From: Cellvibrionales bacterium
Lineage (GTDB): Bacteria; Pseudomonadota; Gammaproteobacteria; Pseudomonadales; Porticoccaceae
Assembly (NCBI GenBank): GCA_002746135.1
Contig: NVWE01000006.1
Location: 43,498 to 77,207 of the forward strand
DNA length: 33,710 nucleotides
Direction: 5' to 3'
Shown: positions 4,181-13,163 of the stretch, one piece after another
How the letters are laid out: every line of letters starts with the position of its first letter
Position numbering within the stretch: the stretch's first letter is position 1
Made by a program: the position numbers and the translations under genes
The notes under the pieces: model-generated
What the model saw: the letters and a program-made list of their open reading frames with translations, nothing else
What the model was told of the DNA's origin: nothing
The model's database searches: none

Positions 4181-5395
4181 TCAATAACGCAAAGCAGGCG
4201 TCGGGGCTTTATCCTGTAGAAGAAATTCACCCACACTTCGAATGCGCAAGTTCACAGGGTCGTGCAAACTGAGAGTACGAATATCACGCCAGAAGCGATC
4301 GAGGTTTTGCTCTCTGAGTGAAGCACGTGCACCACAGGCAGTAAAAACCTCCTGACACACTTTAAGACCGGTCTCAGTGGCAACAATTTTGGCCTGAGAA
4401 ACGGCAACTGAGGCTGCCGCACGTAAGCCAGCCATTTCTTCAGGGCTGGCAGTGGCTCTGGCCGCTAGAGCCACATCAACCAAGCGAGCTGCTTCGAAGG
4501 TCATGGCCTCTGCCGCTGCCAATTGGGCACTTAAACCACCGATAATATTGAGAATGTAAGGGTCGTCCACGGCCTTATCGAAATCCAGGCCTGGCCAGGG
4601 GTAAGCACGGGTTTTTTCTTTGACATAAGTAACACCCTCACGCAAGGCTCCTTTAGCAGCACCAATAAATATACTGGTAAAGCCAATTTGCGTAATAGGC
4701 CCTAATAAATTAGTAACGCCCATTTGACGACTTTCATCGGTAATACTGGTCATTACTAATTCAGATGGCGCGAAAACTTTATCAAACACTGTCGTACCAC
4801 TACCTGTGCCTCTTTGGCCCATGGCATCCCAGTCGTCGATTATTTCCAGGCCTTTGGCATCTTTCGGCACGATAGCGAGGCCCAGGTTATTACCGTACAT
4901 GCCAATCACAGCGAGCTGATCACCGGCTAATGAACCTGTTGAGAAAAACTTTTTGCCCGTAATTTCAACGCCACCCTTAACAGGCGTTAGTGTTAGGTCG
5001 TAGCCTTTTTTCAGATTATTCGTTTTTTCAGAAGCAGCGTTACCTAAAAAGCAGTTCCTCTCAACAATATCGGCAAAGATTATTTTCTTTAAACTCTCCG
5101 GTGCCAATTCATCAAGAAAAGATGCGCCAAGCAAACAGTGAACTAAAAACATTTGTCCTATCGCTGGATTACCTTGTGACAAAGACATAATTGCTCGTGT
5201 TACATCTGTACAGGAAGCGCCCATACCCCCGTAACTTAGAGGCACTGAAAAGCCCAACAAACCACTTTGCTTAAGTTTATCCATCTCTTCTTTAGGGTAT
5301 TCTCCCTTTAAATCACGTTCTGCGTAGGTCTTGGCAAACACATCGGACAAATCGTCAATGCGAGATAGAACTTCATTCATACTTTCAATGGGCAT
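4181..5395 (-). CDS. Acyl-CoA-dehydrogenase-fold flavin monooxygenase (SfnB/DszC-like)
   Basis: A 404-residue protein with the ACAD three-domain plan: an N-terminal helical domain, a middle beta domain with GGVEITGKKFFSTGS (residues 141-155), and a C-terminal helical domain. The ending S-L-H-D-P-V (376-381) and the Ser in F-S-T-G (Ser152) match flavin-dependent monooxygenases of the DszC/SfnB/HpaH group. In that group a His replaces the Glu base of true dehydrogenases (family knowledge, recalled). Such enzymes insert oxygen using FMNH2 or FADH2 from a separate reductase; no reductase is visible in this window. The AAGGAAAGG ribosome site before the ATG is strong. It sits 48 bp after the DUF1302 gene, within the same transcription unit. 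A plain acyl-CoA dehydrogenase role is the less likely alternative. Confidence 0.8.
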   Translation of the reverse strand: MPIESMNEVLSRIDDLSDVFAKTYAERDLKGEYPKEEMDKLKQSGLLGFSVPLSYGGMGASCTDVTRAIMSLSQGNPAIGQMFLVHCLLGASFLDELAPESLKKIIFADIVERNCFLGNAASEKTNNLKKGYDLTLTPVKGGVEITGKKFFSTGSLAGDQLAVIGMYGNNLGLAIVPKDAKGLEIIDDWDAMGQRGTGSGTTVFDKVFAPSELVMTSITDESRQMGVTNLLGPITQIGFTSIFIGAAKGALREGVTYVKEKTRAYPWPGLDFDKAVDDPYILNIIGGLSAQLAAAEAMTFEAARLVDVALAARATASPEEMAGLRAAASVAVSQAKIVATETGLKVCQEVFTACGARASLREQNLDRFWRDIRTLSLHDPVNLRIRSVGEFLLQDKAPTPALRY

Positions 5396-5443: not shown

Positions 5444-7045
5444 TTAGAACTGATAAGTCGCTGTAAATACAGTTTCATTACGGCGAATCCCCGGCTCACC
5501 CAAATACGAGCCAAGGCCCCATGGCCCTGTATCATCACCGTCAGTCCGCCAATATAAATGCTGTTCTACAGCAAAAACCAGGTGTTTTGAAAACAGGTAT
5601 TCCATCTTTATTTTGCTGTAAGAGCCCGTCGAACGAGGGTCATAGGCAAAGACAAATAATGGCTTCCAAAGGCCAGCCGCGCCGTAAGTGGTCGACGCTG
5701 AAAAAGTGATAACAAATTCATCCTGATCGAGTCTATTATTATTTTCACTGACATAACGGTCTGGTACTGTTACGCCATTCACCGTAGCAGGGCTTACATC
5801 ATAAAAAGCGGATCCCTGATAATAGTTATTGTAATCAAGGTAACGGCGCCAGAAAAACTGGGTGGATATAAAGAATGTACGTAGCTTATTTAATGCAGGG
5901 ATCCAGGTCGGCCGATCGATACCAATCATCACCACCGACTGTTTAGCCGTATCAAAGCTATTTCCATTTGGGTTTGCTCTATCGGGGGCCCCAGCAGCGA
6001 TAGCAACGGGGACACCCGAGGTAATCGTCGATTCAAGACGAAAAACCGATTGTGTATATCGATCTTCCGAAAAACTTGCCGTGACACCAAACACATTGAT
6101 ACGGGGATTAACTGTCTCAACATCTACATTAAATACACCAAGGCTATCAAGCCCTGCTGATTTAACTTTCACACCGGTAGTCTGTGAGAAACCATAATAA
6201 TAATTGACACTAAAATCGACTTCATTCCAGATACCCTTAAAACGAAAGCCACCCTGCATATTACTGAGTTTCCTATCATCTGGAGCACCATCGGTAACCG
6301 TCACGTTAAGGTCATGCAGCGTGTTACCAATAAGGACGGAGTTCGCATTATGACTTTGAGAACCAAGACCTCTAATTGCCCAGGGACGGGGATAGCGAGT
6401 CGCCGCTTTAGTCGCCTGAAAATCATCCGGGATAAGTATAAGCTCAAGAAAGGTCTCATCAAATGGCCCGATCTTACCAACATCCCATATACCCCTGGCC
6501 ATCCATAACGGAATACGAATGTCTTCCCAAGATTCACGGGTACCGTGCCATGTTCTATCTAGAGGGTTAATGACATCGAGGGCACGAAAGTTGTCTGTCT
6601 CACCCCAAACAACTTGTTGCTTGCCAAGACGAAGGGAAAAAGGTGCCATCGAAAAATCAACGAAGGCTTCACGTATTTTGTATTCCTCTTTCCCTCTATC
6701 ATGCAACGATCCATAGCTATCGCGAATATCATAGGCGGAGTCATAAACAGCACGACCAAGAAAGGTAAAGGTTGCCTCGTCAATAGGGCCGGATGCGAAA
6801 CGATTAAACATCTGTCCATCTTTCAGAAAATAGTATTTCCCCTCTAACTGGGCCGTATTTCTCTGATGAGTAAGTTCACCATCATGGAAAAAAGAAGCCC
6901 CGTTTTTCATGATATTGTAGGCCTTCACAAAGCCTTCAAGTTCCAAATCTTCACCGACATTCACAATACCCCACGACAACATTGACGCGAAGGTTGTACT
7001 TGAAATAATTAAAATTTTGGCGATTTTCTTTCGACACATAAACAT
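5444..7045 (-). CDS. DUF1302 outer-membrane beta-barrel protein
   Basis: A 533-residue exported protein. I chose the ATG at 7045 because GAGG lies eight bases upstream and because it places a signal peptide (positive CRKK then a hydrophobic run) at the very N-terminus; an ATG 36 bp further upstream has no good ribosome site. The body is rich in alternating beta strands, with RLGKQQVVWGETDNFRALDV and NPLDRTWH, the hallmark of DUF1302. It ends in a strand with a terminal Phe (TATYQF), as outer-membrane barrels do. DUF1302 genes usually pair with DUF1329 genes, as here, and are repeatedly found with steroid, terpene or hydrocarbon catabolism. A channel or export role for hydrophobic compounds is inferred, not shown. 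Confidence 0.85.
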   Translation of the reverse strand: MFMCRKKIAKILIISSTTFASMLSWGIVNVGEDLELEGFVKAYNIMKNGASFFHDGELTHQRNTAQLEGKYYFLKDGQMFNRFASGPIDEATFTFLGRAVYDSAYDIRDSYGSLHDRGKEEYKIREAFVDFSMAPFSLRLGKQQVVWGETDNFRALDVINPLDRTWHGTRESWEDIRIPLWMARGIWDVGKIGPFDETFLELILIPDDFQATKAATRYPRPWAIRGLGSQSHNANSVLIGNTLHDLNVTVTDGAPDDRKLSNMQGGFRFKGIWNEVDFSVNYYYGFSQTTGVKVKSAGLDSLGVFNVDVETVNPRINVFGVTASFSEDRYTQSVFRLESTITSGVPVAIAAGAPDRANPNGNSFDTAKQSVVMIGIDRPTWIPALNKLRTFFISTQFFWRRYLDYNNYYQGSAFYDVSPATVNGVTVPDRYVSENNNRLDQDEFVITFSASTTYGAAGLWKPLFVFAYDPRSTGSYSKIKMEYLFSKHLVFAVEQHLYWRTDGDDTGPWGLGSYLGEPGIRRNETVFTATYQF

Positions 7046-7133
7046 GTAGTTAACCTCGATACGAAAGTGGTTTTTTGACATAACGGAAGCCTGACTCTCA
7101 AGCCTCCGCTTTCAAATAGATTGCTACAATTGC

Positions 7134-8465
7134 TTAGCGACGACCGCTAATCATATTACGCAACGAATAAAACTGCTTAGCCCGTGCTGCGGTAAATTCT
7201 TTCTTGTTTGTAAAGCAGTGGGTCATCGTTGCATGGGGTTTTTTGGCATTGATATCCGTTTGCCCCAAATGTAAAAATACAGAATGGCCTACACTTTTAG
7301 AATAATCCTGCTTAATAAAAGGCGCCTGTGCTGGCGGCTCTTTATCGTAATCTTCAGAATATTTCAGGAAGTGTTGATTCATACGAAACAACTGATCATC
7401 TTTTTTATCAAAAGCGAACATCCAGTGCGTCCAGTAGGTTTCAGCATCAACAAAAACCACCCGCGCACTGTAAGGATGATCTTCACTTTTTGGCTTAATC
7501 AAAACAACATGAGTATCGCGCACTTCCCAGCGTGTCTTGTGCGGCACCCATAAACTGTCCCCGCCAAATTCAGGGTTAGATTCAACATTAATCGTTGCCA
7601 ATATTTTTCGTTTACCCAAATACTCCCAGGTATTTTCGTAAACCTTACCGCCAAAACCATTATTATCCTCACGGATCATATCCATACCCATCAACTCACC
7701 GGTTCGCTCAGAGGCAAGTGTTCGGCGTGGCTTTCGCTGTGCTGGCATATACAACCAGCCCGAGTTTTCTCGGCGATGGTCAACATAGGTGATGGACATA
7801 TCTTTTGCCCCGGCCATATCCCGCGGCGAACGGAACTCCATAACCCGCTTACTTTTAACCTCTTCATAACCCGGCACTAAACTATGGTCACCCCGTGCAT
7901 AAGTTGCAGATGTGTTGGTATATTCCATAATGCGATCAAGCTTACCGCTTTCACCCCGCAACCAGGTCACCATAGGCATATCAAAATCATTAGTGCCGGG
8001 GCGCCAAAGCATATTCCAGATAACTTTTTGACCTGCGACAGGGTCGTCGGCCTTTATTTCAGAAAAAGGAAACCCACCCCCCGTAAATCCAACGAGAGTA
8101 GCGTCTTCATCTAATTTATAGTCAACCGCCATATTTTTACCCCAGTGATCAGGTGCAGGGTAGTTTCTGGTTACTCCGATCTCCATATCCATATTATCGA
8201 AAAAATAATACTTCCATGCTGTATGGGGAATAAGCGCTTCAAGCTTTTGCCCCCGATCATTTATGGTGAGATGTTGGCCTGGGGTTAATTCAGCATCAGG
8301 GCGGGAATTTTCAATCCAGTCACGTAAGGACTGATAGCTTTGATCTTCCGCATGCAACGACAAGGGCAAGCACAGTGATGTCGCCATAGCCAATGCGGGA
8401 AGCACCTTCCCAGAAATCCGATGGTTCGCGATGTGTTTAAGAGGAGCTATATTATCTGTATTCAT
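7134..8465 (-). CDS. DUF1329 exported protein (LolA/LppX-like fold expected)
   Basis: A 443-residue protein, normal for DUF1329. A hydrophobic signal segment at residues 21-37 ends in LHA with predicted cleavage after Ala39. The mature part carries the family's typical stretches, including DHRRENSGWLYMPAQRKPRR around residue 230 and WEYLGKRKIL. A very strong AAGGAAGGGAA ribosome site precedes the ATG. It is the first gene of the leftward unit and is followed after 88 bp by the DUF1302 barrel. The family is thought to act in the periplasm with DUF1302 and often with an RND/MMPL transporter to move hydrophobic cargo. No RND gene is present in this window, so the partner is elsewhere or absent. 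The function is inferred from genomic association only. Confidence 0.85.
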   Translation of the reverse strand: MNTDNIAPLKHIANHRISGKVLPALAMATSLCLPLSLHAEDQSYQSLRDWIENSRPDAELTPGQHLTINDRGQKLEALIPHTAWKYYFFDNMDMEIGVTRNYPAPDHWGKNMAVDYKLDEDATLVGFTGGGFPFSEIKADDPVAGQKVIWNMLWRPGTNDFDMPMVTWLRGESGKLDRIMEYTNTSATYARGDHSLVPGYEEVKSKRVMEFRSPRDMAGAKDMSITYVDHRRENSGWLYMPAQRKPRRTLASERTGELMGMDMIREDNNGFGGKVYENTWEYLGKRKILATINVESNPEFGGDSLWVPHKTRWEVRDTHVVLIKPKSEDHPYSARVVFVDAETYWTHWMFAFDKKDDQLFRMNQHFLKYSEDYDKEPPAQAPFIKQDYSKSVGHSVFLHLGQTDINAKKPHATMTHCFTNKKEFTAARAKQFYSLRNMISGRR

Positions 8466-8795
8466 GATTTCCCTTCCTTCTAATTTGTGAAGAAAAAATC
8501 AATTAAGCAACACCTTTAAATCCCGAAATTTTTTCCGTTTTTTATTTTAAATAGTGGTGCATTAATTAATTTTATTTTCAACACGCCCTGATCTTTGAAA
8601 ATTGCTGAAGTCGGCACGACGTACGGCCATTCACAGCCATCTTATTATCAACTTTTATTTATATACGAACAAATTGATGCTATCTCACGTCCCCCTAAAT
8701 ATCAAGCCTCTGTGCATTCCTTCAACAAAAATGATCAGACTCATACAATAAAACAGATTCAATCGACTCGATAAATCATGGTACTGCATCCGCGC
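8466..8795. other. AT-rich gene-free leader region
   Basis: About 330 bp upstream of the DUF1329 gene without a convincing reading frame. The part next to the start is strongly AT-rich (poly-T and ATTAATTAATTTTATTTT tracts near 8520-8580) and presumably carries the promoter of the leftward unit. I could not pick a -35/-10 pair with confidence. The right part, 8700-8795, may include the decayed tail of the cytochrome gene described next. Confidence 0.4.
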
Positions 8796-9123
8796 TTATG
8801 AACCTGTGCTCTCTCGCCTAAAGACCTTCCCACACACTGGCATTTTACGGGAACCATGCGCCTGAATCAGCTGCTCACCCTGAATATGTCTTTTCACTCG
8901 TGCATCAGGAAGTACCCTGCCGTTGCGAGTACTGAGCTGCGTCAAATCAGCAGATGGCGACTTGAAAGCCAGGCAGGCAGGGCCATCCATGACAGGAAAA
9001 ACAGTAACTCATATAGAGATCTCCACCCCAGTCAACAGTAGAGCTATCCTCTGCAGCCGCCTGCCCAACAGTGGGAAGCATGAACAGAGCAACAACGAGT
9101 GAAATACCAACACGGATTTGTAA
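8796..9123 (-). pseudogene. Decayed c-type cytochrome gene
   Basis: Read from 9123 leftward, one frame gives a signal peptide (IRVGISLVVALFMLPTVGQA followed by AA), then DWGGDLYMSY and the heme-binding motif C-F-S-C-H (codons 9003-8989). It hits a stop at about 8949. Immediately after the heme histidine, the frame starting at 8990 continues as a typical cytochrome c553-like body: F-K-S-P-S-A-D-L-T, then L-S-T-R-N-G-R, then a distal S-R-K-M-P-V-C-G-K-V-F with the likely axial Met. The gene is thus split by a short deletion and frameshift just after C-x-x-C-H. No ATG precedes the signal peptide, the usual MPVWG is MPVCG, and the C-terminal helix is missing or scrambled. It begins 18 bp after the stop of the ACAD-fold gene on the same strand, so it was probably the last gene of that operon. 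Its lost role would have been periplasmic electron transfer. Confidence 0.75.
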
Positions 9124-9141
9124 TTACAAACGCCAAGACAA

Positions 9142-10299
9142 TTAGAATGCCGCTTCCAGTGGATCGCCACCCAGCATCACTAATCCGGCAGAGTGATGAA
9201 AGCTACGGCGTGCATCAATCGCGGACACGACGGCATGAATATTTGCCAGACATCGTTCCAATGCATGCCCCTCCATAAAGGCTGCACTAGAACCTTTGGT
9301 ATAAAGCAGACTAACCATTTCTCGCGCCACATCACCCGCATAAAAAGCAGACGAATACATTTCAGCTTTTAAGGCATTCGGAATAGCTTCACCATTTTTC
9401 AGCTTTTCCCAAACCTTATCAAAGGCCTCAAGAGAGCCCGCACGTATCCCCCGCAAAGCGGCGCTTGCATTAGCAAGAGCCAGTTGAGTTTCCGTTTGAT
9501 CGCGAAACGTCTTACCCGTTCTCGTTGACACCTTGGCTTTAATTTCTTCACAGGCCGACTCAATAGCACCCTGTAATACACCAACTGCAGCCGCCGCAAA
9601 AATAGGCAAGGTCAACAAGGAGGCGGGGCAGCGGAAGAGAGGTCGGTCAATTAGTGTTGTACTGCTGGGGGAGTGAGCCAGCACTTCGGAAACAAACACA
9701 TCTTTCGCGGTGGCCTGATTACTGCCCGTGCCGCGCATGGCGGCAGCGTGCTGCCAGGTCAACTTAATATCCAGTTGCTCAGTAGGCACTAAAAACATAC
9801 GCACATCGGGGCGACCATTTTCTAACATGCGCGGCTTATCACCTTCCTGCACGATGCCCGCCAAAGCACACCAGAGAGAGTCATTACAGCCTGTTACTAC
9901 CGGCCACATACCATTGAGCTTATAACCACCATCAACTGGCGTCGCCTTTGCCAGGGCAACGGCTGAAAAACCAAAGTTCCTGTCCGGCTCAACGAACAAG
10001 GCATTGCGCTCCGCTTCAGGCAGAGCAGCCGCAAACAAGCAAGGCGCCATTGAGTTAACGATATACCAACCGACCGCAGGGTCTGCAGCACTAATCGCAA
10101 CAGTGGCGCGAAAGGCATCTGAAGGCGTAAGCTCAAGTCCACCAACCTCTTTGGGCGCAAACATCCTGAACATGCCGGCTTTACCAGCGGCACTCACGAC
10201 TTCGCTATTCAGCTGCGCATTGACCTCCCCCTCACGGCGGTGCTTTGCAATTAAAGGCTGTAAATCTATCGCGATTTCTTCAATGGTTTTATTCGTCAT
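9142..10299 (-). CDS. ACAD-fold flavin-dependent monooxygenase (HsaA/HpaH-like)
   Basis: A 385-residue protein of the group D flavin monooxygenase type. It has an N-terminal helical domain, a middle domain opened by DGGYKLNGMWPVVTGC (residues 123-138), and a C-terminal helical bundle ending with DARRSFHHSAGL (362-373). The G-x-W-x-x-x-x-G-C signature and the terminal R-R-S-F-H-H are seen in phenol/HSA hydroxylases and indole-acetate-type monooxygenases rather than in acyl-CoA dehydrogenases. Such enzymes need a flavin reductase partner, not found here. It is 29 bp downstream of an amidohydrolase and is followed by a decayed cytochrome c. It differs strongly from the other ACAD-fold monooxygenase at 4181-5395, so the two are not recent duplicates. 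The substrate, possibly aromatic or cyclic, is unknown. Confidence 0.8.
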   Translation of the reverse strand: MTNKTIEEIAIDLQPLIAKHRREGEVNAQLNSEVVSAAGKAGMFRMFAPKEVGGLELTPSDAFRATVAISAADPAVGWYIVNSMAPCLFAAALPEAERNALFVEPDRNFGFSAVALAKATPVDGGYKLNGMWPVVTGCNDSLWCALAGIVQEGDKPRMLENGRPDVRMFLVPTEQLDIKLTWQHAAAMRGTGSNQATAKDVFVSEVLAHSPSSTTLIDRPLFRCPASLLTLPIFAAAAVGVLQGAIESACEEIKAKVSTRTGKTFRDQTETQLALANASAALRGIRAGSLEAFDKVWEKLKNGEAIPNALKAEMYSSAFYAGDVAREMVSLLYTKGSSAAFMEGHALERCLANIHAVVSAIDARRSFHHSAGLVMLGGDPLEAAF

Positions 10300-10328: not shown

Positions 10329-11474
10329 TTATAAATTAAATAAATGTCTGGCATTTTCACCCAGTACTGCTCGCTGTAAGTGCTCAGGTAAGTGGCTAAC
10401 ACTCTGGGCAATATGCCCCGGCGCTTCTAAATCGGCATCGATATGGGGAAAGTCGGAACCCCAGAGAATGCGATCTTCACCCACCAGTTCCAACATCGAA
10501 CCAATGGTGCGCTCCTCTGGTTCGGCGACAAACCACAGGTTGCGTCGAAAATAATCACTGGGTTTTTCCAGTTTTAAAGGCGTATCAAAGGTACTAAAGT
10601 GCTTGTATTTTGCATCCAGCCTGTCCATGGCATAAGCGGCCCAACCACAACCGGCCTCTATTGCCACCAGCTTTAATTTTGGGAATTTATCGAACAGACC
10701 ATCCATCACCATGGCCATACAGGCGGGCATCACCTGTGAGGTCGCACCGAGAGCAAAAGTAAAACTGCGGTTCGCCGGGGTGTCGTACCAATCGCCGACA
10801 AACCCAGTGACCAAACGTCGGGTGCGCACCACAACGTGTGTCAACAGCGGCACCCCCGCCTCTTCTATGCGCGCCCATAGAGGATCGAAGTAACCATCAG
10901 CAAAGGCCTTTCCATCAACCCGTTCCGGGGCCAAAAACACGCCTTTAAAACCCTGTTTAAGCCTTAACTCCAGCTCTTTTACCGCCTCATCAATATCCCG
11001 CAAATTGAGGTGGGCGGCGATCACCAAACGTTCACGGTCAGCGGCCTGAAAATCATACACCCAGTTGTTATAAGCCCGGCAATAGGCGTTAGCAAGCTTG
11101 TTATCCGGCACATCCCAGAAAATCCCAATCGTTGGCAACACCAGCCCGGCGCTTAAACCCCATTGATCAAAATGCGCAATACGATCTGGCCCAAACATGC
11201 TGCCCGCTGGCGCACCGTCGAGATAGCTTAAGGTCGACGTGGGGTCAAAAGCTTTTTGGCGATCGAGTTCCGCACCACCCAATGCAGCCGTACAATTGGG
11301 CAATACAATTTCATTATCGACATAGAGTTGATCAATGCCCTGGGCATTTTTTTTAAATTTAATGGCCCGGTGTTTAAACTCAGCCTCGAGATAATTTTCC
11401 CACAAATCCGGCGGCTCAAGAATGTGCGCATCGGCATCAAATAGAAAAATATCATTTCTTATAGCCGTATTCAT
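10329..11474 (-). CDS. Amidohydrolase-2 family metal-dependent hydrolase/decarboxylase
   Basis: A 381-residue TIM-barrel enzyme. The opening FDADAHILEPPDLW gives the D-x-H metal pair at Asp15 and His17. His213 lies in LTHVV, Glu273 in AIEAGCGW, and Asp341 in WGSDFPH; together these form the expected amidohydrolase_2 metal site. The family includes ACMSD-type decarboxylases and C-C or ring hydrolases working on acids produced by ring cleavage. An AGAAGGAAG ribosome site precedes the ATG at 11474. A terminator lies upstream, so this gene and the following monooxygenase probably have their own promoter (see 11499-11527). Decarboxylation versus hydrolysis cannot be distinguished from sequence. 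Confidence 0.85.
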   Translation of the reverse strand: MNTAIRNDIFLFDADAHILEPPDLWENYLEAEFKHRAIKFKKNAQGIDQLYVDNEIVLPNCTAALGGAELDRQKAFDPTSTLSYLDGAPAGSMFGPDRIAHFDQWGLSAGLVLPTIGIFWDVPDNKLANAYCRAYNNWVYDFQAADRERLVIAAHLNLRDIDEAVKELELRLKQGFKGVFLAPERVDGKAFADGYFDPLWARIEEAGVPLLTHVVVRTRRLVTGFVGDWYDTPANRSFTFALGATSQVMPACMAMVMDGLFDKFPKLKLVAIEAGCGWAAYAMDRLDAKYKHFSTFDTPLKLEKPSDYFRRNLWFVAEPEERTIGSMLELVGEDRILWGSDFPHIDADLEAPGHIAQSVSHLPEHLQRAVLGENARHLFNL

Positions 11475-13128: not shown

Positions 13129-13163
13129 AAAAAAAACCCGGCGCCATTAACACCGGGTTTTTT
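13129..13163. terminator. Bidirectional-looking intrinsic terminator after the 13188-14333 amidohydrolase
   Basis: The arms AAAAAACCCGG (13131-13141) and CCGGGTTTTTT (13153-13163) are exact complements with an 11-base loop. On the minus strand a run of eight T's (plus A's at 13129-13136) follows the GC stem, as in a good rho-independent terminator. It separates the intact amidohydrolase from the pseudogene downstream. Confidence 0.85.

Follow-up and report, generated by a model that had tools for sequence, protein, structure and literature searches.

What, if anything, lies in the gap on the minus strand between an intact gene at 9142–10299 and the DUF1329 gene at 7134–8465, where no ordinary gene is found? 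The window considered here, meaning the whole stretch of 33,710 nucleotides that was analysed, comes from a draft genome (31 contigs, 94.63% complete, 3.35% contamination). The gap almost certainly holds an inactivated small cytochrome c gene, a former member of a DUF1329-DUF1302 module; its loss is probably recent and later than the split of this lineage from its sister genome, G001. The intact gene upstream of it encodes an acyl-CoA-dehydrogenase fold (the nearest NCBIfam model is HsaA, at 119 bits against a cut-off of 450) and is also the upstream neighbour of the cytochrome in G002, a genome of the same genus. The intact module partners, the LolA-like DUF1329 gene (Pfam E 2.8e-29) and the DUF1302 gene at 5444–7081 (Pfam E 3.1e-21), also on the minus strand, are found in a conserved order.

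Two reading frames on the minus strand share what is left of the gene. The first, from 9123 to 8986, opens with a hydrophobic stretch and continues into the haem-binding motif CFSCH at 9003–8989, exactly where an earlier note had placed it. The stretch described in that note as a good signal peptide is signal-peptide-like when judged by eye. An in-frame TAA at 9126–9124 precedes this piece, and no ATG, GTG or TTG occurs in its frame before an internal ATG at 9081. The claim that it lacks a start codon is thus correct for the ordinary starts, but the rare starts ATC, ATT and CTG do occur. The second frame was correctly described as a 64-residue open reading frame that includes MPVCGKVF; it lies at 8990–8796 and continues into HGSRKMPVCGKVFRRESTGS. 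The cytochrome body itself occupies 8984–8799 and includes HGSRKMPVCGKVF.

The link between these pieces and a cytochrome comes from relatives rather than from domain models. For example, Pfam gave the haem piece only E 0.02–0.05 and the 64-residue frame no match, and NCBIfam found nothing in the body piece. Neither window piece reaches the Pfam cut-off for PF00034 or PF13442; the intact G002 orthologue passes both, and all five intact orthologues match both Cytochrom_C and Cytochrome_CBB3 at E ≤ 0.01. In G002, an open cytochrome frame of 150 amino acids is flanked by the same pair of genes, with the order unchanged (locus L058, the same stretch as L020 of JAGPUW010000004.1), so that the intact orthologue that the note had proposed to look for in a sister genome does exist. 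The two window pieces share 65% and 75% identity with its protein, and a tblastn search with it against the window gave a linked two-frame match (E 2e-39), far beyond what chance would give. A profile of the five intact relatives, searched against the whole genome, also found two pieces (E 1.4e-31 and 1.3e-15, the latter for the haem-binding piece).

At E ≤ 0.001 the body piece has matches in 10 of the 97 genomes, the window's own genome being counted in both numbers. Identity is 73–75% in G002, G010 and G037 and 52–73% in G030, G017, G042 and G046, with the matches in G042 and G046 cut by contig ends. Weak matches are present in G005 and G082 (39% and 44%), G002 carries a second, weak copy (40%), and one plasmid record is 37.6% identical. 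The five intact copies (G002, G010, G037, G017 and G030) align over their length, and C-x-S-C-H, a GxGDGPA stretch, HGSR-x-M and W-G-K are invariant among them.

Measured against these five copies, the window's gene is damaged in several places. The first lesion is the missing start. Immediately after the haem motif, at 8988–8984, 17 nucleotides present in all five orthologues are deleted, removing part of the invariant GxGDGPA stretch and breaking the frame. The note had placed the second half one base out of frame, which is correct as the net effect, but the break itself is this deletion. At 8834–8832, Cys replaces the Trp of MPVWG that is invariant in all five relatives, and at 8798–8796 a TAA stands at a codon that is Glu in all five. 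Behind this early stop, a remnant of the C-terminus (ARMQY...ESV) continues over 8795–8755 with a further loss of one base near 8777–8776; tblastn reaches 8757, and the nucleotide alignment shows the rest. The remnant that the note had bounded at 8796–9123 is therefore real, but its end lies beyond the TAA, and the whole gene, a monohaem cytochrome c pseudogene with a signal-peptide-like start, covers about 9123–8755 by two-frame tblastn with the five intact orthologues, nucleotide alignment and profile match.

The note's central claim, a cytochrome c pseudogene, is borne out by the intact sister orthologue together with the two-frame matches. As in other bacterial pseudogenes, homology to an intact gene extends across disabled frames and there is more than one disabling lesion; the CxxCH motif of c-type cytochromes is kept as CFSCH, and no uninterrupted frame leads from the signal peptide to the C-terminus, because the frame is broken and stops early. 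The window's lineage would thus have lost the start and the 3' end of the gene as well as the 17 nucleotides that follow the haem motif, and, judging from these lesions, the locus should make no cytochrome.

Could the gene be intact and merely misread? The genome is a draft, and one frame break in the remnant of a neighbouring Amidohydro_3 gene falls in a run of A and could be a sequencing error. Several lesions together rule out a single sequencing error or slip, however, and a misassembled or misread gene would have to account at once for the 17-nucleotide deletion, a nonsense codon, the lack of a start, the replacement of an invariant Trp and the loss of one base. Furthermore, 11 neighbouring open reading frames of the cluster align nearly full length to their relatives, so the damage is local; that these 11 have no internal stops is no control, since they were selected as open frames. 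An assembly or sequencing error is thus very improbable. Another thought is that both pieces are still made, through frameshifting or as two peptides. Both are well conserved and piece 1 has the rare start codons ATC and ATT. Against this, piece 1 is without an ordinary start, and the lost 17 nucleotides cover some of a segment that does not vary among the five relatives; MPVWG has also lost its invariant Trp, and a stop truncates the tail. A working split or recoded cytochrome is scarcely credible, and the gene is best read as dead.

What did this cytochrome belong to? The note had called it an electron acceptor of this operon, which the distribution of the genes does not uphold. A DUF1329 orthologue is found in 10 of 97 genomes (E ≤ 1e-60). 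In four of these (G002, G010, G017 and G037) an intact cytochrome adjoins it, and in two more (G042 and G046) the adjoining cytochrome is cut by a contig end. One carrier, G030, has an intact cytochrome on another contig, away from DUF1329; in another, the window's own genome, it is dead; and the remaining two, G001 and G027, have the DUF1329-DUF1302 pair with no cytochrome found. Conversely, all eight genomes with a cytochrome match of at least 52% identity have a DUF1329 orthologue, compared with 2 of the other 89 (the window's own genome is included in the 97).

The catabolic genes do not follow the same pattern. In G010, G017 and G037 the cytochrome, DUF1329 and DUF1302 genes lie away from the catabolic cluster, and none of the window's catabolic proteins matches above 150 bits within the 13–14 kb around the module there. 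G037 has its oxygenase orthologue on another contig, and no such orthologue reaches E ≤ 1e-60 in G010 or G017. In the reverse situation, loci L019, L021, L022 and L023 carry two oxygenase-like genes side by side, with the module and the cytochrome both absent. Across genomes, then, the cytochrome follows the DUF1329-DUF1302 pair and not the catabolic genes, and it therefore belonged with that pair. A small, probably secreted cytochrome c with one haem would have formed a three-gene module with the DUF1329 and DUF1302 proteins, and in this genus the module is located within a catabolic cluster. That the acceptor became unnecessary, as the note suggested, is plausible.

The cytochrome would most likely have served the handling of a hydrophobic substrate, as a periplasmic redox step that can be dispensed with; the function of the module is taken from other species. 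One could go further and see a dedicated cytochrome c as a functional component of the outer-membrane module formed by DUF1329 and DUF1302 in this gammaproteobacterial family. It would add to the handling of hydrophobic substrates a periplasmic redox step that lineages drop again and again while retaining the membrane pair; this is a tentative idea that we consider rather doubtful. Beyond this family, the flanks of 31 other cytochrome loci (28 plus three weaker ones, with the weak copies of G002 and G005 from within the family included) gave no tblastn match to the window's DUF1329 protein, although these flanks span at most 1.5 kb, and less at contig ends, so that a distant DUF1329 gene would be missed.

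The note had also suggested that the cytochrome moved elsewhere. The body piece finds only itself in the genome at E ≤ 10, and the next thing that the profile finds is a haem motif in a 312-residue frame on contig 6, at E 0.025. With no replacement from the same family found by either search in a genome that is 94.6% complete, the suggestion is unsupported. The 5% or so of the genome that may be missing could conceal a relocated or duplicated copy, and there are other c-type cytochromes in the genome (five PF13442 matches), but no other member of the family was found by the body or profile searches and such a replacement is improbable. As a separate observation, two Cytochrome_CBB3 matches in this genome, at loci L001 and L002 on contigs C7 and C9, have equal scores and equal open-frame lengths, as if duplicated.

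The death of the gene was probably recent, for which the codon-position pattern is an indirect sign. In the final 100 aligned codons the window and G002 show 80 differences, 48 of them at third positions, much as between the live copies of G002 and G010 (47 of 75). Mostly third-position differences, as between live copies, suggest that the window's gene died not long ago; the sign is indirect because the G002 branch contributes to the pattern. The rate of protein change adds little. Amino-acid changes in the cytochrome number 17 on the window's branch and 6 on that of G002 (82 columns), and in DUF1329 and DUF1302 together 48 and 23, so the excess over the module partners is not significant (Fisher p 0.62) and the case for relaxed selection rests on the lesions and not on rate. 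Both trees of cluster genes give the window the longest branch in the genus. Pairwise synonymous divergence (NG86 dS) is undefined or above 1.4 in every pair printed, and no date is therefore put on the loss.

The order of events can be approached through the sister genome. The tree of DUF1329 plus DUF1302 places G001 as sister to the window (support 100/99); in that of three catabolic genes, the neighbours of the window are G001 plus G005 (89/93), which are themselves paired (90/92). Both trees were rooted at their midpoints. G001 has no cytochrome match in the search of 97 genomes with the body piece, and its 619-nucleotide gap contains no detectable cytochrome remnant, scoring 24 against the G002 gene, a value reached by 17 of 200 plain shuffles. 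For comparison, a dyad stretch in the same gap scores 53 against G002 and 41 against the window, reached by none of 200 shuffles. One old loss shared by the window's genome (G000) and G001 was considered and judged unlikely. Synonymous divergence between the two is 1.7 to 2.5 in four genes (NG86), near saturation, and the window's copy still has the codon pattern of a live gene, which argues for two separate losses. The loss in the window would thus have come after the split from G001, and G001 would have lost its gene separately.

The dyad lies upstream of DUF1329. In the window it occupies 8705–8674 on the minus strand as TTGATATT-N15-TAGCATCAA, conserved in an alignment of six loci, and could serve DUF1329-DUF1302 as an operator or promoter. 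The pattern TTGNTNTT-N15-TANNATCAA, drawn from the same six aligned loci, matches exactly once in the window and in none of 100 window shuffles, and the same match is the only one in the whole genome. A scan of 58 genomes gave 9 matches, spread over 7 of them; the reversed pattern, as a control, gave 3. Four of the 9 stand beside DUF1329, one each in G000, G001, G002 and G010, and the other five are elsewhere; the DUF1329 carriers G017, G027 and G030 have no match, and G037, G042 and G046 lie outside the 58. The dyad is present both where the cytochrome is dead (the window) and where it is gone (G001). With DUF1329 and DUF1302 intact and the dyad kept, the membrane part of the module is probably still functional in the absence of the cytochrome.

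The cytochrome is not the only casualty in this neighbourhood. At 13130–11614 on the minus strand lies an Amidohydro_3 pseudogene whose remains are spread over three frames, with parts missing and a stop codon inside, recognized by tblastn with the intact 577-residue G002 orthologue (L058:10748-12478), which matches Pfam PF07969. This second pseudogene indicates that the cluster is being trimmed in the window's lineage. Gene content of the cluster varies between these lineages: Amidohydro_3 has no match in the searched stretches of G001, L019, L021 and L023, and the Amidohydro_2 gene at 10329–11474, intact in the window, is absent from the G001 and L023 stretches. In L023, the G005 orthologue of window 4181–5395 (L023:9249-10460, plus strand) has an internal stop at codon 43 and is possibly broken.

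The loss of the cytochrome is an unremarkable instance of gene decay within a catabolic cluster and not a new system; another gene has been caught soon after its death. It can have a modest use as a natural knock-out, since DUF1329-DUF1302 is retained with the cytochrome in some genomes and without it in others, which allows a clean comparison to ask whether this little-understood pair has a redox step. It also illustrates that an intergenic gap that looks blank can hide a gene missed by Pfam alone and found by comparison with orthologues.

How does the module compare with known systems? Like other small c-type cytochromes (PF00034 Cytochrom_C and PF13442 Cytochrome_CBB3), the family has a single CxxCH and, in most intact orthologues, a C-terminal Met-Pro-Val-Trp-Gly, the Met of which we take to be the distal haem ligand; unlike them, the window's copy is dead. 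The profile has 21 matches in the PDB, the best stretches of which fall within profile positions 13–96 (the best is 6h5l_B, E 1.8e-9 over 37 positions), and its C-terminal part is without a match there. For the membrane pair, the excerpt of a study of Castellaniella defragrans describes AmeA and AmeB, the DUF1302 and DUF1329 proteins of a monoterpene efflux cluster, as tied to growth on monoterpenes, alongside AmeC and the inner-membrane RND transporter AmeD (PMC6394551). The window shares the adjacent DUF1302-DUF1329 pair with this Ame system, as far as the excerpt describes it, but no RND gene is present among the 26 window frames scanned by Pfam, and the partner in the window's module was a cytochrome c. 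In Pseudomonas putida, according to the excerpt of a second study, the DUF1302 and DUF1329 proteins PP_0765 and PP_0766 are needed for the use of Tween20 and have been proposed to be part of a substrate transport system (PMC10866462). These two protein families are the same as those of the window's pair. In that excerpt the P. putida pair is linked by phenotype with an efflux transporter and a periplasmic protein, with no cytochrome mentioned (PMC10866462).
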